From NCBI RefSeq assembly GCF_002224645.1, contig NZ_CP022121.1, forward strand, positions 3,130,501-3,194,500: 64,000 nt of DNA, written 5' to 3'. The notes under the pieces are model-generated. The model was not told the DNA's origin. It searched no databases and saw nothing but the letters and a program-made list of their open reading frames with translations. Source of the stretch: Dehalobacterium formicoaceticum. GTDB lineage: Bacteria; Bacillota; Dehalobacteriia; Dehalobacteriales; Dehalobacteriaceae. The translations under genes and the position numbers were made by a program. How positions within the stretch are numbered: position 1 is the first letter of the stretch; the number at the start of each line of letters is the position of its first letter. This document shows, one piece after another, positions 3,976 to 41,441 of this stretch.

Positions 3976-4452
3976 TTAGATTGGAGTCAACACCCTGATA
4001 TCACGAATACGTTCTAACAGTTCATCAAAATAATCTTCACCAAACTTTTTAGGATTCTTTAATCTCTCATCATTCATTACAAATCCTTTTTACATATATT
4101 CTTTAAGGATTTTGCTTGTCCAAGTACGAAACTGTACCCCGATATTAGAACGAACATGATAGCCAATGGCAAGGATCATATCAAGGTTGTAGAATTTTGT
4201 ATCTCTTGCAACCTCGCGCCCACCTTCATTTTGAACTAGTAAGTAATTCTTACTTGTTGAACTTTCCTCAAGTTCTCCTTCTTCATAAATATTTTTTATA
4301 TGCATTGTTATATTTTGCGGCGATGTTCCATAAAGTTGTGCAATATTAACACGACTCAGCCACATAGTACCATCTTCCATAGATACATCAATTTTTGTTT
4401 CACCTTTTTCAGTTTGATAGATAAGAATTTCGCCTTTTTGATTTTTATCCAA
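3976..4452 (-). pseudogene. rhuM: RhuM-family protein, interrupted by an in-frame TAA
   Basis: Fragment of a RhuM (virulence RhuM) family protein, normally about 330 residues. A TTG start at 4452-4450 is supported by GGAGGGG seven bases upstream; the next ATG upstream would add non-family residues. Family motifs are visible: IKNIYEEGELEE, NLDMILAIGYHVRS and FRTWTSKILKEYM. An in-frame TAA (4090-4092) then stands where AAA is expected, after which the same frame continues KGFVMNDERLKNPKKFG and FDELLERIRDIR to a second stop at 3976. The C-terminal half is lost. RhuM genes are often found in mobile or defence regions; the function is not settled. Confidence 0.75.
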
Positions 4453-4565
4453 AAGTACCCCTCCAATTTTCTCATAACTCCAATAATTTATTCCGCATAT
4501 TTTAAGGATAAGTTTCCTTACCAGAAATATTTTATAACGTACATGTTTCATATGATGTGACTCTT

Positions 4566-6014: not shown

Positions 6015-6440
6015 CTAGTCCGCAGATGTGGCAATCAAAGCGTCCCCCCGGCACTTTAGCCACGCCTCATATGTTTCCAAATCACAACTTACCTGTTTAA
6101 AGACCAGCCCCAATACAAAAGCATCATCAGCCAACCCGATACCTAAAATAGCATCCGGAATTAAGTCAATCGGATTAAGGAAGTATAAAATTGCTACTAT
6201 AATTATTACAATCGATTTAATTGGTACGTCCTTATATTCGCCTGTAGCCCAATCTTTAACCAGGCCAAATAAGAGTTGAATTTTTTCCCAAACATCATCA
6301 ATGGGACCTTTCTTGCCCTTTTCTTGATTGGCCTTTTTCATAGCTTCATAAACTAATTTCTTAGCTTTATTTTTATCATTTGCATATTCTTTGGCTTTGT
6401 CTCCAAACTTCGCCTTAACATCTTCAAAATTAATATTCAT
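6015..6440 (-). CDS. YkvA-type (DUF1232) membrane protein
   Basis: Protein of 141 residues. The first half is charged and soluble. A membrane segment IVIIIVAILYFLNPIDLIP follows, carrying the FLNPIDLIPD signature of the DUF1232/YkvA family, and then a second hydrophobic stretch (ADDAFVLGLVF). Family function is unknown. GGAGGG precedes the ATG at 6440. It lies 15 bases downstream of the UDP-glucuronate epimerase gene and could be read with it, although it has no obvious sugar role. The C-terminus runs to within 35 bases of the intron start, so its last residues may be altered by the insertion. Confidence 0.75.
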   Translation of the reverse strand: MNINFEDVKAKFGDKAKEYANDKNKAKKLVYEAMKKANQEKGKKGPIDDVWEKIQLLFGLVKDWATGEYKDVPIKSIVIIIVAILYFLNPIDLIPDAILGIGLADDAFVLGLVFKQVSCDLETYEAWLKCRGDALIATSAD

Positions 6441-6455
6441 AGCGATTACCCTCCT

Positions 6456-7499
6456 TTATCTCACCCCATAATAATCTACATACCAATCCGTAAACCTCTG
6501 CAGCCCATCCTCTATCATCGTCTCCGGCTTAAATCCCACTGCATCCTGCAATAAATCAGTAGATGCATAGGTAGCCGGTACATCCCCTAGTTTAATCGGT
6601 TCATAGATTTTCTTAAACACCACTTCTCTCCCCAAAGTCTTACTTAAAGCTTTCTCCAAAGCTCCGATAAATGTCATCAGCTTCTCCGGGGCATTGTTTC
6701 CGATATTAAAAACTCTATGGGCGGCAGAACCTTCAATTCCTTCTCTCGCTTCCGGCGGGCTATTCAATAATCTTACGACACCCTCTATAATATCATCGAT
6801 ATATGTAAAGTCTCTATATAGGTCATGCTCAAAGTCTCCATTATTAAAGATCCTTATTGGCTCACCTTTAAAATATTTATCGGTAAATCCAAAGTAAGCC
6901 ATATCCGGTCTGCCCATTGGACCATAAACTGTAAAGAATCTTAAACCGGTAGCCGGTATTTTATATAAATGACTATAGGTATGGGCCATCAATTCATTTG
7001 ATTTTTTGGTAGCTGCATAGAGAGATACCGGGTTGTCCACGAAATCAGACTCCTCAAAAGGCACTTTCCGATTCGTCCCATAAACAGAACTTGAAGAAGC
7101 GTAAATTAAATGATCAACCGGATTATGTCTGCAGGCCTCAAGGATATGATAAAACCCGATAATATTGCTTTCGATATAAGCATCAGGGTTTTCTATCGAA
7201 TACCTGACCCCTGCTTGGGCAGCCAAATTAACAACCACATGAGGCTTGTACTCTGCAAAGGTCTTTAGTACCATTTCCTTGTAAGATATGTCCCCTTTGA
7301 TAAAGGTAAACTTCTCAAAAGGCTCCAGCTTTTCCAATCGGGCATGTTTTAGATTCACATCATAATAATTATTTATGTTATCTATACCAATCACCCGGCA
7401 CCCTTGCTCCAAGAGTCTCTTTGATAAAAAGTACCCAATAAACCCGGCTGCTCCGGTGATAAAATATGTCTTACTTATATCCAGTGATTTGTAACTCAT
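6456..7499 (-). CDS. UDP-glucuronate 4-epimerase-like SDR enzyme
   Basis: Protein of 347 residues, extended short-chain dehydrogenase/reductase. It most likely turns UDP-glucuronate into UDP-galacturonate for surface polysaccharide. The NAD-binding GAAGFIGYFLS lies near residue 17, a SSSSVYG serine motif near 135, and the catalytic YAATK near 160; GLRFFTVYGP is typical of UDP-glucuronate epimerases. Its ATG overlaps the ugd stop by four bases (ATGA), so the two are translationally coupled: Ugd makes the substrate and this enzyme epimerises it. Other sugar-nucleotide epimerase activities cannot be excluded. Confidence 0.85.
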   Translation of the reverse strand: MSYKSLDISKTYFITGAAGFIGYFLSKRLLEQGCRVIGIDNINNYYDVNLKHARLEKLEPFEKFTFIKGDISYKEMVLKTFAEYKPHVVVNLAAQAGVRYSIENPDAYIESNIIGFYHILEACRHNPVDHLIYASSSSVYGTNRKVPFEESDFVDNPVSLYAATKKSNELMAHTYSHLYKIPATGLRFFTVYGPMGRPDMAYFGFTDKYFKGEPIRIFNNGDFEHDLYRDFTYIDDIIEGVVRLLNSPPEAREGIEGSAAHRVFNIGNNAPEKLMTFIGALEKALSKTLGREVVFKKIYEPIKLGDVPATYASTDLLQDAVGFKPETMIEDGLQRFTDWYVDYYGVR

Positions 7500-9151: not shown

Positions 9152-11314
9152 CTACTGTTTAAGCATAAAATCATCGATTCTCTTAATAACATAATTGGGT
9201 ACAATATCAAATTCATAATAATTTAAACAATGTGTGTAATCATTTTCAATATGGAAACTTTCATTAGCATACTTTTGTAAAACTGGGTTAATCTGTTTCT
9301 TAGTTTTCTTTCCACAAAGTAACAAATATTGCCTAAATAATTGAACTTTATTATATGTATTTTCTTCATTCTTATATAATTCCTTAATGTAAGCTTTATT
9401 AAAGTAATTATTTAAATATGTTTCATAATTAAAGTCTAAAAAGTATTTCCTAATAAAAGTATTAGCATCATTTACTTCATCATATATCAATTTAGTTTGT
9501 CCATCACTTTTTGTTGGCTTATCTCTTCCCTTCATCAATGAAGAGATCATATCGTATGATAAATTATTCTCAAAATCAGCATCATTGTATTCAAGGTATT
9601 TTCTTAATGCAACCATTCTAACGATAGTATTAATTCCTTTTAGGTTATCTGTTGCTTCTGAATGATACAATGCTATTGTTGAAATAATATGCTTTTCAAC
9701 ATCTATCTCTTTCTCCAGTAATTCCTCATCATTATTTGTAAGATAAGAACCAAATGCCCAACTATTTTCAAAATAATGTTTTGTTTTTAAATCAATAATT
9801 GGTTCAAGATCATGTGTTAACAATAAAACGGTATTATCCTTAAAACTATTACTTGTAATTGGTGAAAACAATCTACTCATTATAGCAAACTTTTTATTTT
9901 TATCAAAAGAAGAAATAGGATCATCTAAAATAATCAAATCTGCTCCTTGTTGCTTGGAATAATATAAGAATAAAATTAAAGCCACAACATTCTTTTCTCC
10001 CCAACTCAAACTTTTTCTTATATCGTTTGATTCATATAATTCCTCTTCTGACTTAATATACTTCAATCTACTTATAGATGATTTTTCTGTGATTTGCTCG
10101 ATTTCAAAGTAATAATTAACTCCTGCCGATTTAAGGAAATCATTAATATCTTCTTTTGCCAATGTTATTGACTCAGCTATTGTATTGTTAAGTTCATTAA
10201 TTTCATTATTTAAGCTTTTTATGCTATTTAATAAAACTTCTATTTTTTCATTAACAATGTTAAATACCTTATCAGTCGCTTCCCCGGAAAAGATATCAAA
10301 ATTATCTTTAATTTTTAACTTATTTAATTTTTCTTCTATTATATTTCCATCTACTGTTTTAAATTCAATTGCATCAAATTCAATTATTTCAGTAATCTTT
10401 CTTATTATCTCATTGTATTGAACTTGTAATCTACTAATATTATATGAAAAACTATCTTCATCATCAATTTTCTTTGTAAATCCTTCAAAAAGTTCATATT
10501 CTGATTCTGACATAAACTTTTTCAATTTTAATATAGCATCTTCTAGTTGTTTCTTGTTCTGTATCATAGTTTTATCATAGGTTGTCTCAAAAACTGTTTT
10601 GGTCTTATTATAATCTTCTTTATTCCATCGACTTGCACAGAAAGGACAATTATCTTTATCATCAAAATCTTTTCCTTTAGATTTCCAATCAACCCAAGCA
10701 ACTACCTTGTCACCACTAAAGAAATCATTAAACTCTTTTAGTATTTCTGGCACATTATAAGTTGTATTTTTACTTGCTAAACCTTTTCCAAATCCAGTTT
10801 TACTAAGTTTCCCATCCTTATTAAACTTTAACTTTTCTGCTATCTCAAAAAACGATGTTTTCATATCTTGAAATTCCAAATTTGATGCAATGTCAACTTT
10901 TAAACCTTTTAAACGTATATCAAGTTTTTTTCTATTTTCTTCAAATACAGGATTACTAATAAAAACATCAAATGAGTTGTCTATTGCCTCGTTTTTATTA
11001 AAAATTGTATCACTTACAAAATCATCATTAAACGATATAGCTTTCTTAAAAAAGGGTTTGTTAAAAATCTCTTCTGCTCCTTCTTCTGGAACTTTGATTA
11101 TTACTTCAGGATTAGATTCTTCTCCAAAAGATTTCATTTCTTTGAGTCCGGTCGAATCACCATTAAAATAATATTCCAGTGCATTAGCTATTGTTGACTT
11201 TCCTGTACCATTAAGACCATACTTAACATTCAATTTATTTTTTCTTATTATTACTTCCCCTTTTTTTATATTTCTGCAGTTTTTAATAGAAACTTTAGCA
11301 TAATCAAAATCCAT
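9152..11314 (-). CDS. Zinc-hook AAA/ABC-type ATPase, RloC/PrrC-like defence candidate
   Basis: Protein of 720 residues with SMC/RecF-type layout: Walker A GLNGTGKST at 33-41, a long helical middle, the zinc-hook CPFC at 223-226, a second helical stretch, ABC signature LSWGE at 436-440, Walker B/D-loop ILDDPISSFD at 462-471 and an H-loop LTHD at 499-502. This matches the AAA_13 group that includes the anticodon nucleases RloC and PrrC. In the C-terminal domain R571-x3-E575 has the Arg-Glu spacing of PrrC, but no His follows at the expected distance of about 32; HIENDYTH at 688-695 is the nearest. So nuclease activity is unproven. The gene is very AT-rich compared with ugd and stands alone between a ugd relic and an intron fragment, suggesting transfer. 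Confidence 0.75.
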   Translation of the reverse strand: MDFDYAKVSIKNCRNIKKGEVIIRKNKLNVKYGLNGTGKSTIANALEYYFNGDSTGLKEMKSFGEESNPEVIIKVPEEGAEEIFNKPFFKKAISFNDDFVSDTIFNKNEAIDNSFDVFISNPVFEENRKKLDIRLKGLKVDIASNLEFQDMKTSFFEIAEKLKFNKDGKLSKTGFGKGLASKNTTYNVPEILKEFNDFFSGDKVVAWVDWKSKGKDFDDKDNCPFCASRWNKEDYNKTKTVFETTYDKTMIQNKKQLEDAILKLKKFMSESEYELFEGFTKKIDDEDSFSYNISRLQVQYNEIIRKITEIIEFDAIEFKTVDGNIIEEKLNKLKIKDNFDIFSGEATDKVFNIVNEKIEVLLNSIKSLNNEINELNNTIAESITLAKEDINDFLKSAGVNYYFEIEQITEKSSISRLKYIKSEEELYESNDIRKSLSWGEKNVVALILFLYYSKQQGADLIILDDPISSFDKNKKFAIMSRLFSPITSNSFKDNTVLLLTHDLEPIIDLKTKHYFENSWAFGSYLTNNDEELLEKEIDVEKHIISTIALYHSEATDNLKGINTIVRMVALRKYLEYNDADFENNLSYDMISSLMKGRDKPTKSDGQTKLIYDEVNDANTFIRKYFLDFNYETYLNNYFNKAYIKELYKNEENTYNKVQLFRQYLLLCGKKTKKQINPVLQKYANESFHIENDYTHCLNYYEFDIVPNYVIKRIDDFMLKQ

Positions 11315-11851: not shown

Positions 11852-13126
11852 TTAATTGTTAATATACAGTGTATTGTAAGGCTTAGGCCAAGTTTCCCCG
11901 TATACTTCCTTTACTTTATCAAAATGACTGTTTGGTGTGCCTTTTTCAATTTCATCGAGATATTTTAAGAATTCTTCCTTTGTATTTAAAGAAAAGACCT
12001 TAGTTTTATAGGATGATATTCTAGTTTTTAAATCTTCTTCTCTCAATAGTGACGCACACTCATTATCTATGAATATTGCATCGCAATACGGCAATAACAT
12101 AGATATAGTTTTAACATCATTAATGAAACTAGCTTTTGGGATACGTTTTTGACCTGCTGCTGCTTTCCGTGCTAGAGCTGTATAAAGAAGTGAACTAATC
12201 TTTAAAAATGGAATCTTGCTTAATGAGGGAGAAGTAAAAAATTCGTCAACTTTTATATGTGCTTCCATTTCATTTAACCCATTTTTTCTGGTAATTTCTT
12301 CTAGAGAGTGCATTATATCAATAATTCTTGTATTCATTAACTTGTCAATATCAGTTGATGATCCAAACCGAACTTTATCGAAAGATTTTATATACTCAAA
12401 ATATTGCTTTTTTATTTCTTTACCATATGACAATAATTCGAAATCCCAGTGTTTTTTAAAATCAAAATTCTTTGTTTGTTGCCAGTAGCTAAATAATTGA
12501 TCCATCTTGCTCTGACTGGTTTGCTTGTTGGTTTTCAATAACTTTGTATCTTCTTCTATGTTTAATGTGTCTACAGTTATTATGAATCTATCATGCCAGC
12601 AATGAACATTACCATATATCACGGATTGAATGTCTATTTCAACATCTTTATCTTTATAGCCTCTAACCCAGTTTTCGGCATATTCGCATAACTGAAACAA
12701 TTCAATAGTATCAAAATGATAAAAGCTTGTACCATAAGATAGTAATTCATACATTCTTTTTAAGGTTTCATAGTGTTCTGTCACTATGGATTCATTCTGA
12801 TGTGTTATTGAATCTGGACAAACAATTAATTGTAACTTGCTTAATTTATCCAGCTTTTCGAACAGTTGAAACCAGAAATTATCAATTTTTTTCTTTTGCT
12901 GTTCGGTAACTCTTGGGTTAAGTATTTTTTCCATGTTGCTTATAACAAATTGGTCCAAATAAATTATTTTCTTATGTATCTTAGGTAGTTCATATTCTTT
13001 AGTATAGCAACATTCCTTACAACTACGCGAATAACAATTCCCGCTTATAAATAGCACACCATAACTGGATTTTGCTTTACATTTTGGACAATCCCAATAA
13101 GGCTCTTTTATAAATATCTCTACCAT
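11852..13126 (-). CDS. Zinc-ribbon plus PIN-like domain protein, defence candidate
   Basis: Protein of 424 residues; I do not recognise a named family. The N-terminus has C13-x2-C16 and a second Cys cluster (C31, C36, C39, C40), consistent with a zinc ribbon. Then KIIYLDQFVIS places Asp58 at the end of a beta strand, as the first acidic residue of PIN-like nucleases. CPDSITHQNE follows (105-112), and the C-terminal part has FINDVK (Asp337) and CDAIFIDNECA (Asp349, Asp354), like the later PIN strands. About 180 mostly helical residues lie between. It could be a metal-dependent RNase with a nucleic-acid-binding ribbon. AT-rich and lacking any polysaccharide feature, it looks like an insertion into the locus. 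Alternative: an uncharacterised regulatory protein. Confidence 0.55.
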   Translation of the reverse strand: MVEIFIKEPYWDCPKCKAKSSYGVLFISGNCYSRSCKECCYTKEYELPKIHKKIIYLDQFVISNMEKILNPRVTEQQKKKIDNFWFQLFEKLDKLSKLQLIVCPDSITHQNESIVTEHYETLKRMYELLSYGTSFYHFDTIELFQLCEYAENWVRGYKDKDVEIDIQSVIYGNVHCWHDRFIITVDTLNIEEDTKLLKTNKQTSQSKMDQLFSYWQQTKNFDFKKHWDFELLSYGKEIKKQYFEYIKSFDKVRFGSSTDIDKLMNTRIIDIMHSLEEITRKNGLNEMEAHIKVDEFFTSPSLSKIPFLKISSLLYTALARKAAAGQKRIPKASFINDVKTISMLLPYCDAIFIDNECASLLREEDLKTRISSYKTKVFSLNTKEEFLKYLDEIEKGTPNSHFDKVKEVYGETWPKPYNTLYINN

Positions 13127-13213: not shown

Positions 13214-14695
13214 TTAACCTAATAAGCCTTTAGAGATCTTATTTTTTGGAAATAACCTTCGCATTAAACCAAAAATCTCTTTTCGCATTGAAGGGAACAA
13301 AAATAAAATTCCAAAATAAAATAGTGCACATAAAACAATTGAAACAATACTCCATAATAATCCTTCATTAAGCCGCCGTAACAAAAAGCCGAATAGACCC
13401 ATGCATGTTGCTCCAAATGCTGTTGGAAACACATTTTTGAATATTTTCAATACCGGAAAACCTATTGCAAACTTCATGATTATTAAATGTACTAGAACGA
13501 ACTGCAACCTTATCCATGATCTAGTATATACTAAAGCCCAAAATCCGTATTTAGCGCTTATGACACATGCCGGAACTAAAACAATTAAATGCAGTATTTG
13601 TGCAAGAAAAGATAGTTTTGGCATTCCTTTAGCCCTATATATTTCGCTGCAATAATGACCAAATATGATCATGATAGAGCTTGTAAGAGCCCATATTCCA
13701 ATTACACCACTTGCTTCACTCCATTGACTACCCAATAATATTTGCGTTGCTAAATCGCTATAAAGATACACCCCGATACCCAAAGGAAAGACTAAAACAG
13801 AGACCAGTCTCTGAAATTTAAGATACATATAATAAAAATTGTCCTCATCATGCTGTAAGCGCGATAAGGTTGAAAACAATACAGAAGTTGTTGATCCGGT
13901 TATTAGAGCCATCAGTGCATTAACCATTGTAGTAGACGTTTTATATAGTCCTAAGTAATACCGATTTAATACATTTCCAATAATAAATGCATCTACCCAT
14001 GAAGTCAGCCAAATCGATATCGCTTCGATTAGGGACCATATACTAAATGAAAACATCTCTTTCAATATCTTTACATTATAATATAGCTTTGGCTTCCATT
14101 CAGACTTTGCAGTTAAGATTATAGCATTAGAAAACTGAATAGCAATAGAACCGATAATTAAAGCCCAATATCCTAAGCCAAAAAGTGCAAGGGGTATTGT
14201 AATTGCAAATGGGATGAAAACAGCTATTATGCGAACTACAAATAGTGTTTTATAGTTAAAATCTCTCCTATATAAAGCCATTTGTATGCTTGAAAAAGAT
14301 GTTAGAGGCAACTGCATACAAGATATGGCTATTACGTTACCTAATCCTGGATTCCCTACAAATGCTGCCAGCTGTTCACGGAATATGGTTACAATAATCC
14401 ACAATAAAACAGATATACCAAAGTTCGTCCAAAATGCTACATTAGCATTTTTATATTTTTCATCTTTATCCTTAAACTCATGCTGCACCAAATACTTTTG
14501 AAATCCTGAATCGGTAAACATATCTGCAAAACTAATAATCATAGTAACAGTAGCAACTACACCAAATGCTTCAGGCACAAGTATCCTGGCTAAAATCATG
14601 TTTGTAATTGGACTGACTAATTTTGCAGCTACTTCTGTGATAGTTGACCATTTTGTTGCATGCAAAATTTTATTTTGAAGATTACTTTCTTTCAC
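13214..14695 (-). CDS. Wzx-type polysaccharide flippase (PST family)
   Basis: Protein of 493 residues, almost entirely hydrophobic, with an estimated 12-14 membrane helices. The start has the typical pattern of the polysaccharide transporter family: ATKWSTITEV and then LARILVPEAFGVVATV in the first two helices. It should move undecaprenyl-linked repeat units across the membrane for the Wzy-type polymerase at 16176. The frame is intact. Upstream lies a 349-base gap, so it may have its own promoter. Confidence 0.85.
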   Translation of the reverse strand: MKESNLQNKILHATKWSTITEVAAKLVSPITNMILARILVPEAFGVVATVTMIISFADMFTDSGFQKYLVQHEFKDKDEKYKNANVAFWTNFGISVLLWIIVTIFREQLAAFVGNPGLGNVIAISCMQLPLTSFSSIQMALYRRDFNYKTLFVVRIIAVFIPFAITIPLALFGLGYWALIIGSIAIQFSNAIILTAKSEWKPKLYYNVKILKEMFSFSIWSLIEAISIWLTSWVDAFIIGNVLNRYYLGLYKTSTTMVNALMALITGSTTSVLFSTLSRLQHDEDNFYYMYLKFQRLVSVLVFPLGIGVYLYSDLATQILLGSQWSEASGVIGIWALTSSIMIIFGHYCSEIYRAKGMPKLSFLAQILHLIVLVPACVISAKYGFWALVYTRSWIRLQFVLVHLIIMKFAIGFPVLKIFKNVFPTAFGATCMGLFGFLLRRLNEGLLWSIVSIVLCALFYFGILFLFPSMRKEIFGLMRRLFPKNKISKGLLG

Positions 14696-18782: not shown

Positions 18783-19595
18783 TTAACTATTTTCATATGT
18801 ACTTTCTTTCGCACTAAACGAATTTTTTAGTACCCTCTTAACATTTACATAAACGGGAATAAAAATTTTTATGTATTGCCACGGCTTCACCTTGAGCATT
18901 CGGTAGCCTTTGTAACGAAGCACAACCTCATAAAAAGTACTCTTAAATGAGTGCTTTTTTAATGCCGCCTTTGGCGAAAAATAATATTTATATAGGGGCT
19001 TCTGAATATTATATCCATTTAACCCTTGTGCTGACATTCTCATAAAAAGCTCGTAATCCTGTGCCCTTTTTTGGGCATAATACTCTTCACTATACCCACC
19101 TACACCTAATATGGTTTCTCTTCTGAACATAGTAGCCGGGTGAAGATACGGTGAGCCATGTATAATTTGATTCTTTGTCGGTATTTCCGGCTTCTTATTT
19201 ATTCCGACATTGTCATTCCCATCAGTAAACGTAATTGCATTGCATGACACGAAAGCGTATTCCAGGTTCTTCCTCAAAAAATCAATTTCCTCTTCGAAAC
19301 GAGTTGGTAGAGATATGTCGTCATCATCCATTCTGGCAATATATTCACCTGTAGCCTCCTCCAGACAGCGATTTAACGATGCAGCTAATCCCAAATTCGT
19401 CTGGTTTTGTATAATGATAAATCTGGAGTCCTCTTTTTTGTATCTAACTAGTTTTTCATATGTTTTATCAGTTGATGCATCATCACATATAATAAACTCA
19501 TAATCTTGAATTGATTGTCTCAATATACTTTCTACTGATCTATCAAGAAACTTAGCCCCATTATGGACGCTCATAATTATTGAAATTAATGCCAT
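18783..19595 (-). CDS. Family 2 glycosyltransferase
   Basis: Protein of 270 residues, GT-A fold. ISIIMSVHNGAKFLDRSVES at the start, then DDASTDKTYE, and the metal-binding RMDDDDISLP near residue 90 are clear GT2 signs. The LHPATMFRRE segment is common in polysaccharide GT2 enzymes. It lacks a membrane anchor and should act on the cytoplasmic side. Tandem with another GT2 gene 29 bases upstream. Confidence 0.9.
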   Translation of the reverse strand: MALISIIMSVHNGAKFLDRSVESILRQSIQDYEFIICDDASTDKTYEKLVRYKKEDSRFIIIQNQTNLGLAASLNRCLEEATGEYIARMDDDDISLPTRFEEEIDFLRKNLEYAFVSCNAITFTDGNDNVGINKKPEIPTKNQIIHGSPYLHPATMFRRETILGVGGYSEEYYAQKRAQDYELFMRMSAQGLNGYNIQKPLYKYYFSPKAALKKHSFKSTFYEVVLRYKGYRMLKVKPWQYIKIFIPVYVNVKRVLKNSFSAKESTYENS

Positions 19596-19624: not shown

Positions 19625-20620
19625 TTACTTATATTTTGCATATATTTGAATTAATAAAATCAATCTGTATTTTAGTGCAACTTTCATTATTTGAGCCTTG
19701 AAGGAGTGCTTGAAATGGCATTTCTTCACAGCTTCACTGTATAGTGGCAAGTCAAGATGATATAAAATATCCTTTTTTATTACAGAGTATGGTTCTTTTT
19801 TATAGAACTGCGATACAACCACTGAAAACACTTCATGTGTAATCTTACGATATAGCTGTTCCTGAAAATCGAACTTATGCACATCAATTTGCTTGGCAAG
19901 ATGATTTGCAATAATCTCTGGACCGTCCCACTTGAAGACATTGTGTCCCTTTGTAATAGAGGATATATTATAACGATAATAATACATACAATCTGGCATA
20001 ATATACATTGATCTTGCATGATAAATAGACGGAATTGTGCATGCACCATCTTCGCCTACTGTGACATTAACATCTACTAGTTGTTGTTGTTTATATATAT
20101 TTATTCTGAATGCCTTTGCCCACAAACTTGGTGAAAAATATGTAGCATTCGGTGCTTGAATTAGTTTGGGATAAATTTCATTTTTTAGATTTTCTAAAGT
20201 ATAGTATCCAATACGGTGCCTTGTATGTTTTTCCTCATTAGACTCTTCTGTTGCCAAATAATAACCACAACAAACGATATCCGGATTATACATTTCTATG
20301 ACATCAACCATTCTTTTACAATAGTCAATATCAACCCAATCGTCACCGTCTACACATATTAAATATTCACCTGTGGCGATAGCTACACCAGCTTGTCTAG
20401 CACTAACAATACCACCATTTCTCTTATGCACAACCTTGACTCGTTCATCTATACTAGCATATTTATCGCAGATGCTAGGACAGTTATCCGGTGAGCCATC
20501 ATCTACTAATACTATTTCGATATCTGCATAAGATTGATTAATCAAACTTTCAATACATTGTCTAATATAAGATTCAACTTTATATATTGGTACTATTATA
20601 CTAAACGTCTTATTCGACAT
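19625..20620 (-). CDS. Family 2 glycosyltransferase
   Basis: Protein of 331 residues. FSIIVPIYKVESYIRQCIES, VDDGSPDN, NGGIVSARQAG and the CVDGDDWVD metal motif are classic GT2 features of the EpsH/WcaA type. The C-terminal third (long, basic and aromatic) is typical of capsule GT2 enzymes. Its gene follows a 716-base gap on its upstream side, so transcription may restart there. Confidence 0.9.
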   Translation of the reverse strand: MSNKTFSIIVPIYKVESYIRQCIESLINQSYADIEIVLVDDGSPDNCPSICDKYASIDERVKVVHKRNGGIVSARQAGVAIATGEYLICVDGDDWVDIDYCKRMVDVIEMYNPDIVCCGYYLATEESNEEKHTRHRIGYYTLENLKNEIYPKLIQAPNATYFSPSLWAKAFRINIYKQQQLVDVNVTVGEDGACTIPSIYHARSMYIMPDCMYYYRYNISSITKGHNVFKWDGPEIIANHLAKQIDVHKFDFQEQLYRKITHEVFSVVVSQFYKKEPYSVIKKDILYHLDLPLYSEAVKKCHFKHSFKAQIMKVALKYRLILLIQIYAKYK

Positions 20621-21336: not shown

Positions 21337-22452
21337 TCATTTATATATTTTAATTAACCTTGATTTTACATTAACAATATCATATTCCATTACTCGCTTT
21401 TTATTGAACTCACCAAAGCTATTATTTATGTTATTAATATAATTAGAATACAGAACTGATATATATTTTGAAAAGCCATAAACATCATCTGGTTTTACCA
21501 GATAACCACCCTTATCACTTTCTATCAAATCGCTATTTCCTCTTATATCTGAGCAAATTACCGGCAATCCACTTGCCATTGCTTCCATTAATGCCACAGA
21601 TAGTCCTTCTCTGAATGAAGGGAAAACAAAAATATCTGATGCTTTACAAATCTCTACGATATCATTACGCGTACCTAATAATTTAACTTTATTTTCTATC
21701 CCCAATTTCGTTGATAAATTTCTCAAATATTCTTCCAGTATACCTTGTCCACATATTACATAGTATAGATTTGGATTATCCAACTTCGTTATAGCCCTTA
21801 AAACCGTTTCATGATTTTTATTTTTGTTTAGTTCACCAACAGAAAGCAGAACGAAGGATTTATCAGGAATATCTAATTCTTTCCGTTTTTCTTCTTTATC
21901 AACAATTACATCACTAAATTTCCTAGTATCCAAGCCAACTCCGGGAATATATACTATTTTATCTGTTTTTAAAGATTTAAATGATTTTTTAGCTCTTAAA
22001 TAGTCTTCATTATTTATTAAAAGAAGTACTTCTGTATATCTAGCAAGCCACTTTTCTATTGGATAATATATCAACCAATTTTTTAGAGGGGCTCCTTTAT
22101 AAAAATGAAACCCATGTGCTGTATAAAAAACCTTAGTACTCTTAATCTTTCTACAAGCATACCTTACGCATGCTGAGGCCACTGGTGTATGTGTATGAAC
22201 CAAATCATATTTTTCATTTGAAATAATCTGTTTCAATTTCTTATATGCACGATAATTATCCTTATTAAATGGTGAACGTTGAAAAGCTAAATCATAAACC
22301 TTGCATCCCATTTCATATATTTCTGGTCTTACTTCTCTTTCAATTTTAAATGCTACATCTACCCTATGACCTTGTTCTATTAGCATCCTAATATGTGGAA
22401 TCAAAAATGCATTTACAGTATTCGATATTGTAGTAACATATAAAATTTTCAT
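21337..22452 (-). CDS. Family 4 glycosyltransferase
   Basis: Protein of 371 residues, similar to capsule enzymes of the EpsD/CapM type. The start is KILYVTTISNTVNAFLIPHI, with the VHTHTPVASACVRYACRK acceptor motif near residue 86 and YTAHGFHFYKGAP near 111. The C-terminal domain has VLLSVGELNKNKNHE and the donor motif FREGLSVALMEAMASGLPVI. Usually the second enzyme of repeat-unit assembly, acting on the lipid-linked sugar made by a PglC-type transferase, which fits the gene at 26549. Confidence 0.92.
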   Translation of the reverse strand: MKILYVTTISNTVNAFLIPHIRMLIEQGHRVDVAFKIEREVRPEIYEMGCKVYDLAFQRSPFNKDNYRAYKKLKQIISNEKYDLVHTHTPVASACVRYACRKIKSTKVFYTAHGFHFYKGAPLKNWLIYYPIEKWLARYTEVLLLINNEDYLRAKKSFKSLKTDKIVYIPGVGLDTRKFSDVIVDKEEKRKELDIPDKSFVLLSVGELNKNKNHETVLRAITKLDNPNLYYVICGQGILEEYLRNLSTKLGIENKVKLLGTRNDIVEICKASDIFVFPSFREGLSVALMEAMASGLPVICSDIRGNSDLIESDKGGYLVKPDDVYGFSKYISVLYSNYINNINNSFGEFNKKRVMEYDIVNVKSRLIKIYK

Positions 22453-22728: not shown

Positions 22729-22947
22729 TCATTCCATATAATCCAGAATGTCTTGTATGGTTTTAAATTCTTTAATTTGATTACCAGTTAACTTCTTATT
22801 AAATTCTTCATCCATTAATACAATAAGTGATAATTTAGCCATAGAATCCCACTCCTCTATGTCATTTAACATAGTCTTTTCTGTTAGGGTTCCTTCTTCC
22901 ATTTCAAACATATCTTCTAATAATGCAATTTTTTCTTTATTTGTCAT
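22729..22947 (-). CDS. Acyl carrier protein-like phosphopantetheine protein
   Basis: About 72 residues. The attachment Ser lies in EEWDSMAKLSLI, with Ser within the D-S-(M/L) motif of acyl carrier proteins. The ATG at 22947 is chosen because GGAGG is five bases upstream; a longer frame to 23001 has basic residues foreign to the family. It carries the acyl chain for the two KASIII enzymes and the reductase encoded just upstream. A 4'-phosphopantetheinyl transferase is not seen in the window. Confidence 0.85.
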   Translation of the reverse strand: MTNKEKIALLEDMFEMEEGTLTEKTMLNDIEEWDSMAKLSLIVLMDEEFNKKLTGNQIKEFKTIQDILDYME

Positions 22948-22981
22948 TTTTATTACCTCCATTTTTTGCTTTTTATGTTTG

Positions 22982-23740
22982 CTATGATAAATAACCACCA
23001 TCTACTACAAATCCCGTACCGGTAATGAATTTAGAAGCATCACTGAGCAAATAAGCCATAGCATTCGCTATATCAAGCGGCTCACCCATTCCTTGATATT
23101 GTCTTCCTAGAACGAGCATATCAAATGTTTCTTCTCCAGCATTATCAACATACGCACTATACATATCAGTTTTTACAAATCCACCTACCACAGTATTCAC
23201 TCGTATTTTCTTAGATTCAAGTTCCTTTGCCATACATTTTATTGCTGCATCCATTGCTGCCTTTGAAGCACAATAAGCTATTTTGGATTTATCGCCAGAT
23301 TGACTTCCTACTGATGACATTCCAATAAAGCTTGCACCTTCTACAAATTTTTTCTTTTTTGATGCACATCGTACCACCTCAACAAAGGAGTAAAAATTTA
23401 TCACCATAACATCATGTAGGAAGTCATATTTAGTTGATCCTAATGGTCGCATTGGCGCTATCCCCGCACAATGAACTAAACCATTTAAGGCTCCATTCTC
23501 TTGCACAATTTGATTAATTAGACCTTCTATTTTATCAATTCCTTTTAAGTCAAAAGGATAGACTGCATGTCCCTCTCCTTCCATCATCTTGAGGGTTTCA
23601 TTTAGTTTATCTTCACTCCTTGCCACAAGCACAATCTTTCCACCTAGTTTACTTAACTGAATAGCAGTTGCCCTGCCGATTCCAGACGATGCCCCTGTTA
23701 CAAGAATAAGTTTTTCGGATAAGTCCATCGGATTAATCAT
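22982..23740 (-). CDS. FabG-like 3-oxoacyl-ACP reductase (SDR)
   Basis: Protein of 252 residues, classical SDR. Cofactor motif TGASSGIGRATA near residue 15, HCAGIAP, the catalytic Ser (MSSVGSQSG) and YCASK near 152, then VNTVVGGFVKTD and the C-terminal FITGTGFVVDGGYLS. It should reduce a 3-oxoacyl-ACP to 3-hydroxyacyl-ACP. Its first eight bases overlap the end of the KASIII gene at 23733, indicating tight coupling. The neighbouring ACP gene follows 34 bases later. Confidence 0.85.
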   Translation of the reverse strand: MINPMDLSEKLILVTGASSGIGRATAIQLSKLGGKIVLVARSEDKLNETLKMMEGEGHAVYPFDLKGIDKIEGLINQIVQENGALNGLVHCAGIAPMRPLGSTKYDFLHDVMVINFYSFVEVVRCASKKKKFVEGASFIGMSSVGSQSGDKSKIAYCASKAAMDAAIKCMAKELESKKIRVNTVVGGFVKTDMYSAYVDNAGEETFDMLVLGRQYQGMGEPLDIANAMAYLLSDASKFITGTGFVVDGGYLS

Positions 23741-24821
23741 GGCTTACCCCTCCATCCATATATATTTCTTCAGTTTCAATAATCGGTAAAACATCATCTG
23801 TTTCCAGTACACAAGACACTACTCCCCATGATAATCCTATACCAAATCCGCACATTAATAATTTTAATGCTCCATTGTTTATGCTTCCATATGCATCAGT
23901 TATTGTCAAAGGAATAGATGTTACACTTGTGTTCCCGTACCGATCCATAGATATTGGTGTTTTTTCTTTTGGAAACTTAGTCCGTTTCATAATTTGCTTA
24001 AGTATATATTCATTTGCTTGGTGTAGTATTAAGCCGTCATAATCATCTACATTTGTATTAATTTCCGCCATAAATTCCTTAATTAACATAGGAACCTCTG
24101 ATATCGTGAAATTAAACACATCTGTACCATTCATATATAAGTCAAAATCTGAACGAATATTTCCATCGCCCCATAGTGTCCGCTCTTTTGGTGCATCCAT
24201 ATTTCTATAGGCACCTGCTGGTACAATAATTGCTTTAAATCCATCACCATCCATCCTCAAAGCAGTTTGTATGATTGGGGCATCTTGCCTTTTCTCCAAT
24301 AAAGTTGCCGACCCTGCATCTCCAAACAACATACAAGAGGATTTATCCTCCGGAGCAATAACTTTATTTAATGTGTCACCAACTAGCAATAAACCTCTTT
24401 TTATATTACTGCTATGCATAAGTGAGGAAATTGTTTGCAATCCATATATATAACCGGAGCATCCCAGGTTAATATCAAAGGCTAAACAATCTTTACTAAG
24501 TCCTAATCTGTGATGCAGTATACAAGCTGTGGATGGCATTATATAATCCGGTGTTTGCGTTACGAAAATCAGTACCTCAATTGAAGATGCTTCAATTTGC
24601 TTGTGTTTCATTAGGTTTTTTGCTGCAACAAATGCTAGATCAGACGCAGTTTGTTCTTTGGCGGATATATTGCGCGATACAACTCCCGTCATTTTACTGA
24701 ATTTTAGAACATCTTCTTCGCCAAAAACAGATCCATATTTATCAAGCAATATATCTTTCTTTTTTGGAACAGCACAAGCAATTCCGCTTATTTTTAAATT
24801 TTCAAAGGTAGATAGAATCAA
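23733..24821 (-). CDS. Beta-ketoacyl-ACP synthase III-like enzyme, copy 1
   Basis: Protein of 362 residues, FabH-like thiolase fold. The catalytic triad is intact: Cys in FDINLGCSGYIYG (about 119), His in LILHQANEYIL (about 258) and Asn in DRYGNTSVTSIP (about 289). It condenses an acyl starter with malonyl-ACP. It sits in an operon with a second KASIII, an SDR and an ACP, making a small dedicated fatty-acyl module in a polysaccharide locus. It is some 30 residues longer than copy 2, mainly at the C-terminus. It may prime a short hydroxyacyl group for sugar N- or O-acylation (inference). Confidence 0.85.
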   Translation of the reverse strand: MILSTFENLKISGIACAVPKKKDILLDKYGSVFGEEDVLKFSKMTGVVSRNISAKEQTASDLAFVAAKNLMKHKQIEASSIEVLIFVTQTPDYIMPSTACILHHRLGLSKDCLAFDINLGCSGYIYGLQTISSLMHSSNIKRGLLLVGDTLNKVIAPEDKSSCMLFGDAGSATLLEKRQDAPIIQTALRMDGDGFKAIIVPAGAYRNMDAPKERTLWGDGNIRSDFDLYMNGTDVFNFTISEVPMLIKEFMAEINTNVDDYDGLILHQANEYILKQIMKRTKFPKEKTPISMDRYGNTSVTSIPLTITDAYGSINNGALKLLMCGFGIGLSWGVVSCVLETDDVLPIIETEEIYMDGGVSHD

Positions 24822-24838
24822 GTGTTAATCCCCTTTCC

Positions 24839-25840
24839 CTAGTATGTAATTATGGTACTGCCCCATGACAGTCCAACACCGAAACCGCAGAGTAAAACTC
24901 TATCACCTTTTTGTATACGTCCTTCTATTTGGGCCCGTTTAAATGCAATAGGTATTGTAGATGATACCGTATTTCCCGTATCCTGCATGTTTATGTAAAA
25001 CTTCTCCTTTGGTATTCTTAACTTCTTCCTCAAAAAGTCCAACATAAATTCGTTTGCTTGGTGAAAAACAAACAGATTTATGTCTTCCATACTCAGATTA
25101 TGTTTTCTTAATATATTATTAACACTTTCAGGTACTACCCGTATGGTAAAGCTAAACACCTCTGTTCCATCCATAAAAAGATTATCCTGTGAACGAATTG
25201 AACCATTATCTTCTATCTCTACAGCAGTAGCTTTAGATCGGGGTATTCTAGATCCGCCGGATGGAATAATTAATGCGTCTTTACCACTGCCATCAGTGCC
25301 TAAATCAAAGTTGCCAATTTCATGACCATCTTCGCTAACTAATGTAGCTGCCGCTGCATCGCCAAAAATTGTGCGGGTACTTTTATCTAATGGGTGTATA
25401 TGTTTTGTATAGGTTTCTGACGTTAATAATAAAACATTCTTTGCTATCCCCGTATTAATAAAGCTCTTTGCCATAGCTAGTCCATATATGTAAGCAGAAC
25501 AACCCAAATTAAAATCTAATGCTCCTGCTGATTGAGGTATTCCTAACCGATCTTGTAGTATACAAGCTGTTGTGGGTAATTGATAGTCAGGACTTTGTGT
25601 TGCTAGCAAGATAAAATCAATCTCCTCCGGTGATATAACGCCAGAATTGAATAACTTCTGCGCTGCTTGTTCGGCTAAATCAGATGCACACTCTCCTTCA
25701 GATACAACATGCCGTGATGCTATCCCTGTTTTAGTTAATATTTTTTCGGCTGTCCAATCGCCATATATTTGCTCTAATTCCTTATTTGTCAATACTTTCT
25801 CAGGCAACACATATTCGATTGCTTTAATCCCGATAGCCAT
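24839..25840 (-). CDS. Beta-ketoacyl-ACP synthase III-like enzyme, copy 2
   Basis: Protein of 333 residues, normal FabH length. Triad: Cys in FNLGCSAYIYG, His in FVFHQANEFML, Asn in QDTGNTVSSTIP. It is clearly related to copy 1 (both have LGCS-YIYGL and HQANE) but diverged, so the two may use different starters or act in sequence. Seventeen bases separate the genes. Confidence 0.87.
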   Translation of the reverse strand: MAIGIKAIEYVLPEKVLTNKELEQIYGDWTAEKILTKTGIASRHVVSEGECASDLAEQAAQKLFNSGVISPEEIDFILLATQSPDYQLPTTACILQDRLGIPQSAGALDFNLGCSAYIYGLAMAKSFINTGIAKNVLLLTSETYTKHIHPLDKSTRTIFGDAAAATLVSEDGHEIGNFDLGTDGSGKDALIIPSGGSRIPRSKATAVEIEDNGSIRSQDNLFMDGTEVFSFTIRVVPESVNNILRKHNLSMEDINLFVFHQANEFMLDFLRKKLRIPKEKFYINMQDTGNTVSSTIPIAFKRAQIEGRIQKGDRVLLCGFGVGLSWGSTIITY

Positions 25841-26548: not shown

Positions 26549-27259
26549 TTATCCCTTTCCGCTATACACTTCTTTATTACCCTTAAATACCTCCATTGTT
26601 GCCGTTGTATCTGAACTAATCCCTTCTCTTACAAATGCCTTTTTTATCGTAAGAAAAATAATCTTCCAGTCTCCGAAGAAACTCACATTATCTACATACA
26701 CTACATCAAGATCAAACTTGTCTTCCCAGCTAATAGCATTCCGGCCATTCACTTGCGCATGACCAGATAGACCAGGCCTTACCTCATGTCTACGTTTTTG
26801 ATGATTATTATAAAGTGGCAAATACTGAATTAATAAAGGCCTCGGTCCCACAACACTCATATCGCCCTTCAATATATTGAACAGCTCCGGAAGTTCATCT
26901 AATGAGGTTGATCTCAGCATTCTACCAAACTTAGTCAGTCTAACTGAATCTGGCAGCAACTCACCATTCGCGGATTTCTCATCAGTCATTGTCCTAAATT
27001 TATACATATTGAAGATCTTCTCATTAAGTCCAGGTCTTTTCTGTTTAAACAGCACCGGACTGCCCAGCTTCACTCTAACAAGTATCGCCACAATGAAAAG
27101 TACCGGGCTTAAAGCAATAATTGCCATTAACGACAAAATAAAGTCCATCGGCCTCTTAAGAAATCTTCGATAGATGCCTTTTTGGTTGGCCTGTTGGTCA
27201 GTTGGACAGTTGGAAGGGGTAACACCTTCTTTAACTTCAGACTGCATATATATCACCAC
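26549..27259 (-). CDS. PglC-type undecaprenyl-phosphate sugar phosphotransferase
   Basis: Protein of 236 residues, monotopic phosphoglycosyl transferase. After a 30-residue polar leader comes RFLKRPMDFILSLMAIIALSP, the re-entrant membrane helix. MYKFRTM, DELPELFNILKGDMSVVGPR and RPGLSGHAQVNGRNA follow. It transfers the first sugar-phosphate (here probably a di-N-acyl-bacillosamine-type sugar) to undecaprenyl phosphate. The start overlaps the PglE-like stop. GTG at 27259 or ATG at 27247 are both possible. The leader is encoded by a TTGG-rich repeat shared with intergenic repeats (27183-27218). Confidence 0.92.
   Translation of the reverse strand: MVIYMQSEVKEGVTPSNCPTDQQANQKGIYRRFLKRPMDFILSLMAIIALSPVLFIVAILVRVKLGSPVLFKQKRPGLNEKIFNMYKFRTMTDEKSANGELLPDSVRLTKFGRMLRSTSLDELPELFNILKGDMSVVGPRPLLIQYLPLYNNHQKRRHEVRPGLSGHAQVNGRNAISWEDKFDLDVVYVDNVSFFGDWKIIFLTIKKAFVREGISSDTTATMEVFKGNKEVYSGKG
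27183..27218. repeat. TTGGTCAG-type repeat inside the PglC-like coding region
   Basis: Plus-strand bases TTGGTTGGCCTGTTGGTCAG and the following TTGGACAGTTGG match the tandem units found between genes at 28391, 37299 and 39418. It encodes the polar leader SNCPTDQQANQ on the minus strand. Confidence 0.7.
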
Positions 27260-28377
27260 AGTCCCTTAATAATCCCACAAACTCTTTCCAGATCCCCATC
27301 CGTCATCTTGGTATCACTTGTCAAACACACACCGTTCTCAAAGAGCTTCTCACTAATATCTCCACCAATGTAATCATACTTTTCAAAGAAAGGTTGCATG
27401 TGCATAGGCTTCCAAATCGGCCTTGATTCAATATTTTCTTTCTCGAGTGCCTCTATAATATCTAAGGGCCTAACTTTTCCATGTAAAGTGATACAAGATA
27501 ACCAATAATTTGGCTGATTCCAATCATTAATGGGCATGAACCGAACTCCTTCAAGCCCTCCCAACTCACTTTTATAAAACTCAAATATGTATTTTTTCTT
27601 AGCTATTCTTTGATCTAATACTCTTAACTGACCTCTCCCAATCCCGGCAAGAACATTGCTCATTCTGTAGTTGTAACCTAACTCACTATGTTGATAATGT
27701 ATTGCCTTATCCCTGGATTGAGTTGCCCAAAAACGAACTTTGGCAATTCTTTCTTCAATATCAGAAATGAGCATGCCTCCACCGGAGGTAGTAATGATCT
27801 TGTTTCCATTAAAAGAAAAGATGCCATAATCACCAATGATTCCTGTATGTTTACCTTTATAAGTAGTTCCCAATGATTCCGCCGCATCTTCGATTAACGT
27901 TACATTATGCTTCCTGCATAATTCAACAATGGGATCCATATCAGCCGACAAACCATATAAATGCACAACTAAAACAGCCTTTACCCGGTCACCATACTTT
28001 TCAAAGGCTGCTTCCAATGCTTTGGGATCCATATTCCAAGTTTCATAATCACTGTCAATAAAGACAGGAGTAGCATTTTGATAAATTATTGGGTTAGCTG
28101 TGGCAGAAAAAGTAAGGGTTGGGCAGAACACTATATCCCCTTCTTTAATTCCGGCAGCTTTCAGAGCCAGGTGAATGGCAGCAGTGCCGGATACTAAAGC
28201 CGCTGCATGCTTTGCACCAACCTTAGCAGCTAATTCATTCTCAAATTCATTGACGTTCTTTCCCAGGGGAGCAATCCAATTGGTATCGAAGGCCTCTTGT
28301 ATGTATTGCATTTCGTAACCTTCGGCGCTCATGTGGGGGGATGAGAGGTATGTACGGATGTTTTTGTTGTGGGGCAT
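27253..28377 (-). CDS. PglE-type aminotransferase (DegT/DnrJ/EryC1/StrS)
   Basis: Protein of 374 residues. It aminates a UDP-4-keto-6-deoxy-sugar. Typical segments: TNWIAPLGKNVNEFE near the start, SGTAAIHLALKAAGI, the FCPTLTFSATANPIIY block, EDAAESLGTTYKGKHTG and the PLP lysine in SFNGNKIITTSGGG (about residue 185), then GYNYRMSNVLAGIGRGQL. Best match by motif is PglE-like enzymes of bacillosamine synthesis. The required 4,6-dehydratase is not adjacent, but a PglF-like gene lies at 39570. First gene of the long polysaccharide locus. Confidence 0.92.
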   Translation of the reverse strand: MPHNKNIRTYLSSPHMSAEGYEMQYIQEAFDTNWIAPLGKNVNEFENELAAKVGAKHAAALVSGTAAIHLALKAAGIKEGDIVFCPTLTFSATANPIIYQNATPVFIDSDYETWNMDPKALEAAFEKYGDRVKAVLVVHLYGLSADMDPIVELCRKHNVTLIEDAAESLGTTYKGKHTGIIGDYGIFSFNGNKIITTSGGGMLISDIEERIAKVRFWATQSRDKAIHYQHSELGYNYRMSNVLAGIGRGQLRVLDQRIAKKKYIFEFYKSELGGLEGVRFMPINDWNQPNYWLSCITLHGKVRPLDIIEALEKENIESRPIWKPMHMQPFFEKYDYIGGDISEKLFENGVCLTSDTKMTDGDLERVCGIIKGLW

Positions 28378-39569: not shown

Positions 39570-41441
39570 CTAACTTACCTCATTGGCTGTAATCGGTGCC
39601 TCTATTGTGTGGCTTCTGAATGATGGCAGAAATTCCTGAATCATGTGCTGTGTTTCATTTTCATTCTCCGGCAAATTGCCCCGCATAATGCGGCCGATGA
39701 TCTTCTCCTCAATCAGTTCAGACATGATTTCGCCTCTTTTGGCCACAAAGATTCTTTTATGGGTCGTGGCGGTGACGCCTTCTTCAGCTGTCAGGAGCTC
39801 TTCGTATAGTTTTTCCCCGGGACGAGTCCCCGTCACTTTTATTTCAATATCTTTGCCCGGTCTAAACCCGGACAGTTCAATCAGGCTATAGGCCAGATCC
39901 ATGATCCGGACCGGCTCGCCCATATCCAGGATAAAAATTTCCCCGCCTTTTGCCATCGATCCCGCTTGGATCACCAATTGTACCGCTTCGGGAATGGTCA
40001 TAAAATATCTCACCATCTCTTGATGGGTCACCGTCACCGGACCGCCGTTGGCAATCTGTTTCTTGAACAGAGGAATCACACTACCCTTGCTGCCTAATAC
40101 ATTGCCAAAGCGCACCGCAACATAACTGGTTTCGCTGATGGTGTCCAGATATTGGATCACCATTTCCCCCAGCCGCTTGGTGGCGCCCATGATACTGGTG
40201 GGATTTACCGCCTTATCGGTAGAAATAAAGACAAATTTTTTGGCATGGAACATATCGGCGGCCTGGGCCACATTGTAGGTACCCAGAACATTATTTTTGA
40301 TGGCGTCTTCCGGATTGTACTCCATCATGGGCACATGCTTGTGAGCCGCGGCATGAAAGACAATCTGGGGACGATATTTCATAAAGGTGTTGATTAAGGC
40401 TTTGCGATCCCGCACATTCTTAACCATGGGCACGATTTTTAAATGGGGAAAGCTTTTTTTCAGCTCCATGTCAATTTCATAGACGTTGTTCTCACAGGAA
40501 TCAAATATCAATAAAGTCTTCGGCTGATAATGAGCCACCTGGCGGCACAGCTCGGAACCGATGGATCCGCCTCCGCCGGTGATTAACACCACCTGATCTT
40601 TCAGGTAAGCGGTAATATCATCCATATTAACCTGCACCGGTTCCCGGCCTAATAAATCTTCTACTTCCACATCCCGGATCTGGCTGACCTTTACCTTGCC
40701 GTCGATTAGATCATAGACGCCGGGCAAGATTTTCACTTTTACCCCGGCATTTTTGCAAATACCTAAAATTTCTTTTTTGACCTGGATATCTGCGGAGGGC
40801 ATGGCAATAATCACTTCATCCACCTGATGCTTTTTGACTAAGTGTGGGATATCCTCTCTTCCTCCCAAAACGCTGATTTCCTGAATGATCATATTTTTTT
40901 TGCAGTGATCATCATCCACAAAACCAACAATCTCAACGCTGCCATTATAATGACTTTTCAATTCCTTCGCCACCAGCACCCCGGCATCCCCGGCGCCGCA
41001 GATCATAACTTTTTTATCGGCACTTTTTTTCTTGCCGCCCAGATGATTATCACGAATCAATCTCCAGGTAATGCGGGATCCCCCGATAAATACGATGCGC
41101 AGAATGAAGTCCAAAAGATATACTGATCGGGGCAAAGGAAAGGTAGAACCGCTGTAAAGATAAGCTAAAAGAACCGTTAATATACTCCCCAATGTCACGC
41201 CCCGAATCACCGCCATAAGTTCTCCGATACTGGCATATTCCCAGGCACGGCGGTATAGCCCAAAGGCAAAAAATAAAACCATCATGATAATGGTAGAAAA
41301 GGGGGCAATTTGCCAATATGTATTGATATAATTCCCAGGGATCTGTCCGTCAAAGCGGATTAATAATGCGAAAAACAGACTTAAGTGGAGCAGGATGGCA
41401 TCAACCGCCATCAGCACAAGAGAACGCCAGCTGTAGAACAT
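39570..41441 (-). CDS. PglF/CapD-type nucleotide-sugar 4,6-dehydratase
   Basis: Protein of 623 residues. Four N-terminal membrane helices (about residues 10-130) precede a CoA-binding-like Rossmann domain (GAGDAGVLVAKELK near 150) and the catalytic SDR domain: TGGGGSIGSELCRQ near 290, STDKAVNPTSIMGATKR with the catalytic Lys near 400 and FGNVLGSKGSVIPLFKKQI. PglF-type enzymes convert UDP-GlcNAc to the 4-keto-6-deoxy sugar that a PglE aminotransferase uses; the PglE, PglD and PglC genes lie at 25.9-28.4 kb. The C-terminus overlaps a tandem repeat. Confidence 0.92.
   Translation of the reverse strand: MFYSWRSLVLMAVDAILLHLSLFFALLIRFDGQIPGNYINTYWQIAPFSTIIMMVLFFAFGLYRRAWEYASIGELMAVIRGVTLGSILTVLLAYLYSGSTFPLPRSVYLLDFILRIVFIGGSRITWRLIRDNHLGGKKKSADKKVMICGAGDAGVLVAKELKSHYNGSVEIVGFVDDDHCKKNMIIQEISVLGGREDIPHLVKKHQVDEVIIAMPSADIQVKKEILGICKNAGVKVKILPGVYDLIDGKVKVSQIRDVEVEDLLGREPVQVNMDDITAYLKDQVVLITGGGGSIGSELCRQVAHYQPKTLLIFDSCENNVYEIDMELKKSFPHLKIVPMVKNVRDRKALINTFMKYRPQIVFHAAAHKHVPMMEYNPEDAIKNNVLGTYNVAQAADMFHAKKFVFISTDKAVNPTSIMGATKRLGEMVIQYLDTISETSYVAVRFGNVLGSKGSVIPLFKKQIANGGPVTVTHQEMVRYFMTIPEAVQLVIQAGSMAKGGEIFILDMGEPVRIMDLAYSLIELSGFRPGKDIEIKVTGTRPGEKLYEELLTAEEGVTATTHKRIFVAKRGEIMSELIEEKIIGRIMRGNLPENENETQHMIQEFLPSFRSHTIEAPITANEVS

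Follow-up and report, generated by a model that had tools for sequence, protein, structure and literature searches.

We analysed a window of 64,000 nucleotides (the whole stretch studied; all positions refer to it) from Dehalobacterium formicoaceticum (assembly GCF_002224645.1, contig NZ_CP022121.1, positions 3,130,501 to 3,194,500), and within it a cassette for two β-ketoacyl-acyl carrier protein synthases III (KASIII, here KS1 and KS2), a short-chain dehydrogenase/reductase (SDR) and an acyl carrier protein (ACP). These four proteins, which a first reading of the DNA (the original prediction) had placed between 22729 and 25840, were all found there on the minus strand. They form the distal part of a minus-strand operon of seven genes, arranged head to tail from 28377 down to 22729 in the order PglE-PglC-PglD-KS1-KS2-SDR-ACP:

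27253..28377, minus strand: PglE/LegC-type aminotransferase (UDP-4-keto-sugar to UDP-bacillosamine); DegT family, 326 bits
26549..27259, minus strand: PglC-like initiating phosphoglycosyltransferase, small form of 236 aa; PF02397, 208 bits
25914..26546, minus strand: PglD/NeuD-type hexapeptide N-acyltransferase; TIGR03570, 188.6 bits
24839..25840, minus strand: KS1, 333 aa; PRK09352, 302.8 bits; Cys-His-Asn intact
23733..24821, minus strand: KS2, 362 aa, TTG start; KASIII Pfam domains; Cys-His-Asn intact
22982..23740, minus strand: SDR-type 3-ketoacyl-ACP reductase, FabG-like, 252 aa; PF13561, 176 bits
22729..22947, minus strand: dedicated ACP, 72 aa from an internal ATG (open reading frame 22729-23001); serine motif EEWDSMAK; weak family and PDB matches

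Neighbouring genes overlap or are separated by 2-73 nucleotides and carry Shine-Dalgarno-like sequences; this tight packing, together with the recurrence of the same gene set in other phyla, argues against a chance assembly. Promoter-like sites were no more frequent than in shuffled sequence. The ACP probably starts at the internal ATG at 22947, which follows the Shine-Dalgarno-like GGAGGTG and would yield the protein of 72 residues.

Both synthases score above the cut-off for the KASIII Pfam domains PF08541/PF08545. KS1 passes the PRK09352 cut-off of 249 bits, KS2 falls slightly short of it with 237.1 bits, and neither reaches the FabH subfamily TIGR00747 (262.7 bits for KS1 and 202.3 for KS2, cut-off 292.1). 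The closest PDB entries by sequence are 3gwa for KS1 and 4efi for KS2, and KS1 is 39% identical to the genome's own FabH. Alignment to FabH placed Cys, His and Asn at the expected positions in both enzymes, while the equivalents of Trp32 and Arg249 are missing and Arg151 is replaced by Lys in both. Considering that Trp32 and Arg249 are absent, KS1 and KS2 differ from a simple duplicate of the housekeeping FabH. The SDR carries the motifs TGASSGIG and YCASK. The ACP was recognised weakly, with E 2e-6 both in NCBIfam and for its closest PDB entry, 2lml ('putative acyl carrier protein'), and gave no match in the Pfam scan. The catalytic residues reported earlier as conserved, i.e. the Cys-His-Asn triads of KS1 and KS2, the Y-x3-K of the SDR and the DS of the ACP, were thus confirmed.

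Elsewhere in the genome lies a separate housekeeping operon, fapR-plsX-fabH-fabK-fabD-fabG-acpP-fabF, whose genes were named by reading their translations and whose arrangement points to a Bacillota host. Since this constitutes a complete type II fatty acid synthesis (FAS II) operon, the cassette is an addition to fatty acid synthesis. With FabH-dependent FAS II initiation it has in common a KASIII, a ketoreductase, an ACP and the active-site residues; it differs by having two KASIIIs of other subfamilies, and the cassette operon itself is devoid of dehydratase, enoyl reductase and KASI/II. The absence of these enzymes, noted in the original prediction, therefore holds within the module, but not genome-wide.

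Judged from its predicted gene products, the operon is located in a Wzx/Wzy polysaccharide locus that comprises all the UDP-bacillosamine enzymes. The relevant genes outside the operon are:

13214..14695, minus strand: Wzx-type flippase; PF13440, 281 bits
16176..17693, minus strand: Wzy-type polymerase; PF14296, 112 bits
17657-18739, 18783-19595, 19625-20620 and 21337-22452, minus strand: four glycosyltransferases; Pfam GT families
39570..41441, minus strand: PglF-like UDP-GlcNAc 4,6-dehydratase; PF02719, 412 bits; top PDB match 5bju WlaL

The PglD/NeuD-type protein exceeds the TIGR03570 cut-off of 160.8 bits and is the only member of this family above cut-off in the genome; its closest PDB entry is VioB (7txp), followed by other sugar N-acetyltransferases including PglD. 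The aminotransferase scores 382.2 bits against the LegC family TIGR04181, below the cut-off of 420, and its top PDB matches are 1o61, 1o62 and 1o69, annotated 'aminotransferase', and 4ztc. We take 1o61 and 4ztc to be Campylobacter jejuni PglE, and 5bju WlaL is presumably PglF of the same species. With the PglF-like dehydratase encoded near the operon that bears PglE, PglC and PglD, the UDP-bacillosamine enzyme set is complete, and the presence of homologues of all four proteins allows the sugar to be named as bacillosamine (UDP-D-Qui2NAc4N).

The distribution of the cassette was then examined in a comparison set of 96 stretches, obtained from a KS1 scan of genome contigs, which gave 71 loci, and from KS2 searches of Flavobacteriales, of the genus with a Chryseobacterium locus (L014), of a large genus taken as Flavobacterium, and of plasmids. 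KS1-type and KS2-type enzymes fall into two clades with support of 0.93 and 0.98, in a tree whose rooting on a single FabH is a weakness. KS1 alone was present in 57 of 92 KASIII loci, KS2 alone in 16, both in 17 and neither in 2; these numbers reflect the way the set was assembled and should not be read as natural frequencies. Besides the window itself, both enzymes occur together in Verrucomicrobia (L007), Adlercreutzia (L009; Actinomycetota), a gammaproteobacterium (L051), Emcibacteraceae (L054; Alphaproteobacteria), Oligoflexales (L064), a Pirellula-like planctomycete (L069) and several Flavobacteriales (Bacteroidota). Sixteen of the 17 two-KASIII loci were taken further (L127 was left out): Cys-His-Asn is intact in 32/32 KASIIIs and the ACP serine motif is found in all 16. 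The survey of KASIII pairs beside PglD genes that had been suggested as a check showed PglD within 6 kb in 12/17 two-KASIII loci, and an aminotransferase within the same distance in 11/17. Tree distances were correlated for KS2-SDR (r = 0.66), KS2-ACP (0.48) and KS1-KS2 (0.45), with permutation P <= 0.0014 for these three pairs, the value for KS1-SDR being 0.27. When the host's own lineage was surveyed with KS2 as query, only the window's own genome matched at E <= 1e-66 among 149 genomes (148 relatives without match), which fits an accessory, mobile cassette.

Several related loci carry additional genes. A Rieske-type oxygenase (PF00848/PF00355) is encoded in cassettes of several Flavobacteriales (L098:10204-11286, L103:8641-9729, L106:8808-9881 and 6378-7454), in L106 together with a ferredoxin-reductase-like protein; it suggests that the acyl group is oxidised in a further step there, and the window cassette has no such gene. 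L121:7153-13372, and likewise L120 and L122, show a variant in which a KS2-type KASIII, an ACP and an SDR are each present twice, beside PglD; L121 additionally encodes an AMP-binding enzyme, and in both L121 and L122 one of the KASIIIs has a length of only 327 aa.

The gene set closest to that of the window is the O-antigen cassette of Flavobacterium psychrophilum, in which wfpC and wfpE encode different ketoacyl-ACP synthases, wfpD an ACP, wfpF a reductase, wfpG a PglD homologue and wfpB a PglC homologue, next to pglE and pglF (Cisar 2019, PMC6519341). The R1 group on N-4 of D-Qui2NAc4N in this O-antigen is (3S,5S)-3,5-dihydroxyhexanoyl, as established by nuclear magnetic resonance and earlier chemistry cited there, and the lipopolysaccharide of strains devoid of the above genes differs in antigenicity (PMC6519341). 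With wfpC-G and its surroundings the window shares two distinct ketoacyl-ACP synthases (KS1 and KS2 in separate clades), a dedicated ACP and one ketoacyl-ACP reductase beside them, the PglD-type acyltransferase, the PglC, PglE and PglF homologues and the Wzx/Wzy locus. The hosts are unrelated, and the gene order appears to differ, PglF standing apart from the operon in the window. The sugar-forming enzymes are also those of the C. jejuni Pgl pathway (PglF, PglE, PglD and PglC; N,N'-diacetylbacillosamine), where the PglD product is the N-acetyl form (PMC6519341), whereas for the window a longer acyl group from KASIII, SDR and ACP is proposed. At the level of chemistry, the O-antigen of Vibrio cholerae O3 carries 3,5-dihydroxyhexanoyl on N-4 of bacillosamine (review PMC3210612), i.e. 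the sugar position and the acyl group proposed here.

Therefore, the gene content of the locus together with the wfpC-G precedent supports the hypothesis that the cassette makes a hydroxyacyl-ACP for the N-acylation of bacillosamine, to which we assign a probability of about 0.8. The original prediction had pointed in this direction, suggesting a short hydroxyacyl group for sugar acylation through PglD, and the Pgl set now gives the sugar its name. What we observe are the gene content, the intact active sites, the full bacillosamine enzyme set and its recurrence with the cassette in other phyla; each catalytic step, the length of the chain and which synthase acts in which round are what we infer from these genes. 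The polysaccharide would be of the Wzx/Wzy type with bacillosamine, a rare amino sugar, as its first sugar, and the cassette would be its dedicated supply of acyl donor. Malonyl groups are assumed to be loaded onto the cassette ACP by the housekeeping FabD. KS1 would condense an acetyl starter with malonyl-ACP, and the SDR would reduce the product to 3-hydroxybutyryl-ACP; KS2 would most likely carry out a further condensation with malonyl, and renewed reduction by this SDR would yield 3,5-dihydroxyhexanoyl-ACP, in which both hydroxyls would stay because the cassette has no dehydratase or enoyl reductase. The PglF and PglE homologues would make UDP-D-Qui2NAc4NH2, the PglD homologue would place the acyl group on N-4, most likely the target position, and the PglC homologue would transfer the sugar phosphate to the lipid carrier. 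We lean slightly towards 3,5-dihydroxyhexanoyl as the acyl chain, as two rounds without dehydration are favoured by the identity of the window gene set with the F. psychrophilum cassette.

A number of points weigh against parts of this proposal. The link from the wfp genes to R1 is the prediction of the authors themselves (PMC6519341), and the likeness of the window to wfpC-G described here is one of gene content. An ACP-bound, as opposed to a coenzyme A-bound, donor for PglD is only a proposal. At the FabH positions Trp32, Arg36, Arg151 and Arg249, the KS1 and KS2 clades both deviate. In 8 loci, the KASIIIs and PglD showed no significant co-variation (r = 0.27, P about 0.09). KS2 is also found as the only KASIII with ACP, SDR and PglD, in L101 and L126. 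These single-KS2 cassettes weaken the idea that KS2 serves in elongation only, and the presence of two KASIIIs does not have to imply a second round.

The same loci bear on the possibility that only one round takes place, giving 3-hydroxybutyryl-ACP for N-4 of bacillosamine, with the two KASIIIs redundant, using different starters or forming a heterodimer. Among other polysaccharide loci, a KS1-type enzyme alone accompanies ACP and SDR in L056 (PGT-KS1-ACP-SDR-PglD-AMT; PGT, phosphoglycosyltransferase; AMT, aminotransferase), a KS2-type enzyme alone does so in L126 (PGT-ACP-KS2-SDR-PglD-AMT), and glycans of other bacteria are known to contain N-[(S)-3-hydroxybutyryl]-bacillosamine (review PMC3210612); in the literature, we found no further KASIII-linked 3-hydroxybutyryl loci. 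Nevertheless, plain redundancy does not explain full active sites in both enzymes and their pairing in many phyla, and in F. psychrophilum a set with two synthases is associated with a C6 dihydroxy acid. A single round, and with it the earlier statement that the product stops at the 3-hydroxy stage, is possible but unlikely: two distinct KASIIIs and one reductase match the wfp set for 3,5-dihydroxyhexanoyl, one round is probably too short, and the two-round product appears the more likely of the two.

It is considerably less probable that the module serves some other acylation (of a different sugar or amino sugar, at a different position, as in O-acylation, or of a lipid or a secondary metabolite) and stands beside PglD by coincidence. 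In Azospirillum brasilense p3 (L108), a KS2-type KASIII and an SDR indeed adjoin pseG and a GNAT; in a capsule-type locus of a Parabacteroides distasonis plasmid (L109), such a pair is accompanied by two ACPs, an acetyltransferase and an AMP-binding protein. The non-significant KASIII-PglD co-variation would agree with such a role. In the window, however, PglD is directly upstream in the same operon, together with PglC and PglE, and its proximity in most two-KASIII loci speaks in the same sense. Finally, the KASIIIs could be non-condensing acyl transferases, the SDR and ACP serving another step, as KASIII-like enzymes such as CerJ are known to transfer acyl groups to sugars. Enzymes of the CerJ type have Asp in place of the active-site Asn, which is retained in both KS1 and KS2; moreover, the operon already encodes a hexapeptide N-acyltransferase, and the reductase would be left without a role, which makes this explanation very improbable.

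The surroundings of the cassette showed some further features. Within the polysaccharide region, an AAA_13-type ATPase (9152-11314) matches the candidate defence family PDC-S06 with 602 bits and adjoins a protein of 424 aa (11852-13126) that gave no match in Pfam and PADLOC scans. An open reading frame of 153 aa (4090-4551) matches the N-terminal part of the PADLOC candidate family PDC-S05 (162 bits) and may be truncated, several of the matched profiles being about 330-346 positions long. A protein of the phage-integrase family is encoded at 52961-54436 (PF00589, 100 bits).

The cassette is of a known kind, that of the F. psychrophilum wfp genes; what is new is a member in an unrelated host and the paired KS1/KS2 cassettes across phyla. 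Acyl groups on surface sugars shape antigen specificity in F. psychrophilum. A broader hypothesis, tentative and less likely than not, is that KASIII-only 'mini polyketide' cassettes build N-acyl groups of surface sugars across phyla, that the number and subfamily of the KASIIIs (KS1, KS2 or both) and the extra genes, such as Rieske oxygenases and AMP-binding enzymes, predict the acyl group, and that KS2 elongates a 3-hydroxyacyl-ACP. If so, the elongation of 3-hydroxyacyl-ACP by KS2 would be an unusual role for a KASIII, and two KASIIIs, a reductase, an ACP and an acyltransferase would make a small in vitro system for probing a second elongation round by such an enzyme. Paired KASIIIs would then be a general biosynthetic module extending beyond one fish pathogen, and gene content could be used to predict the unusual acyl groups that bacterial surface sugars carry.

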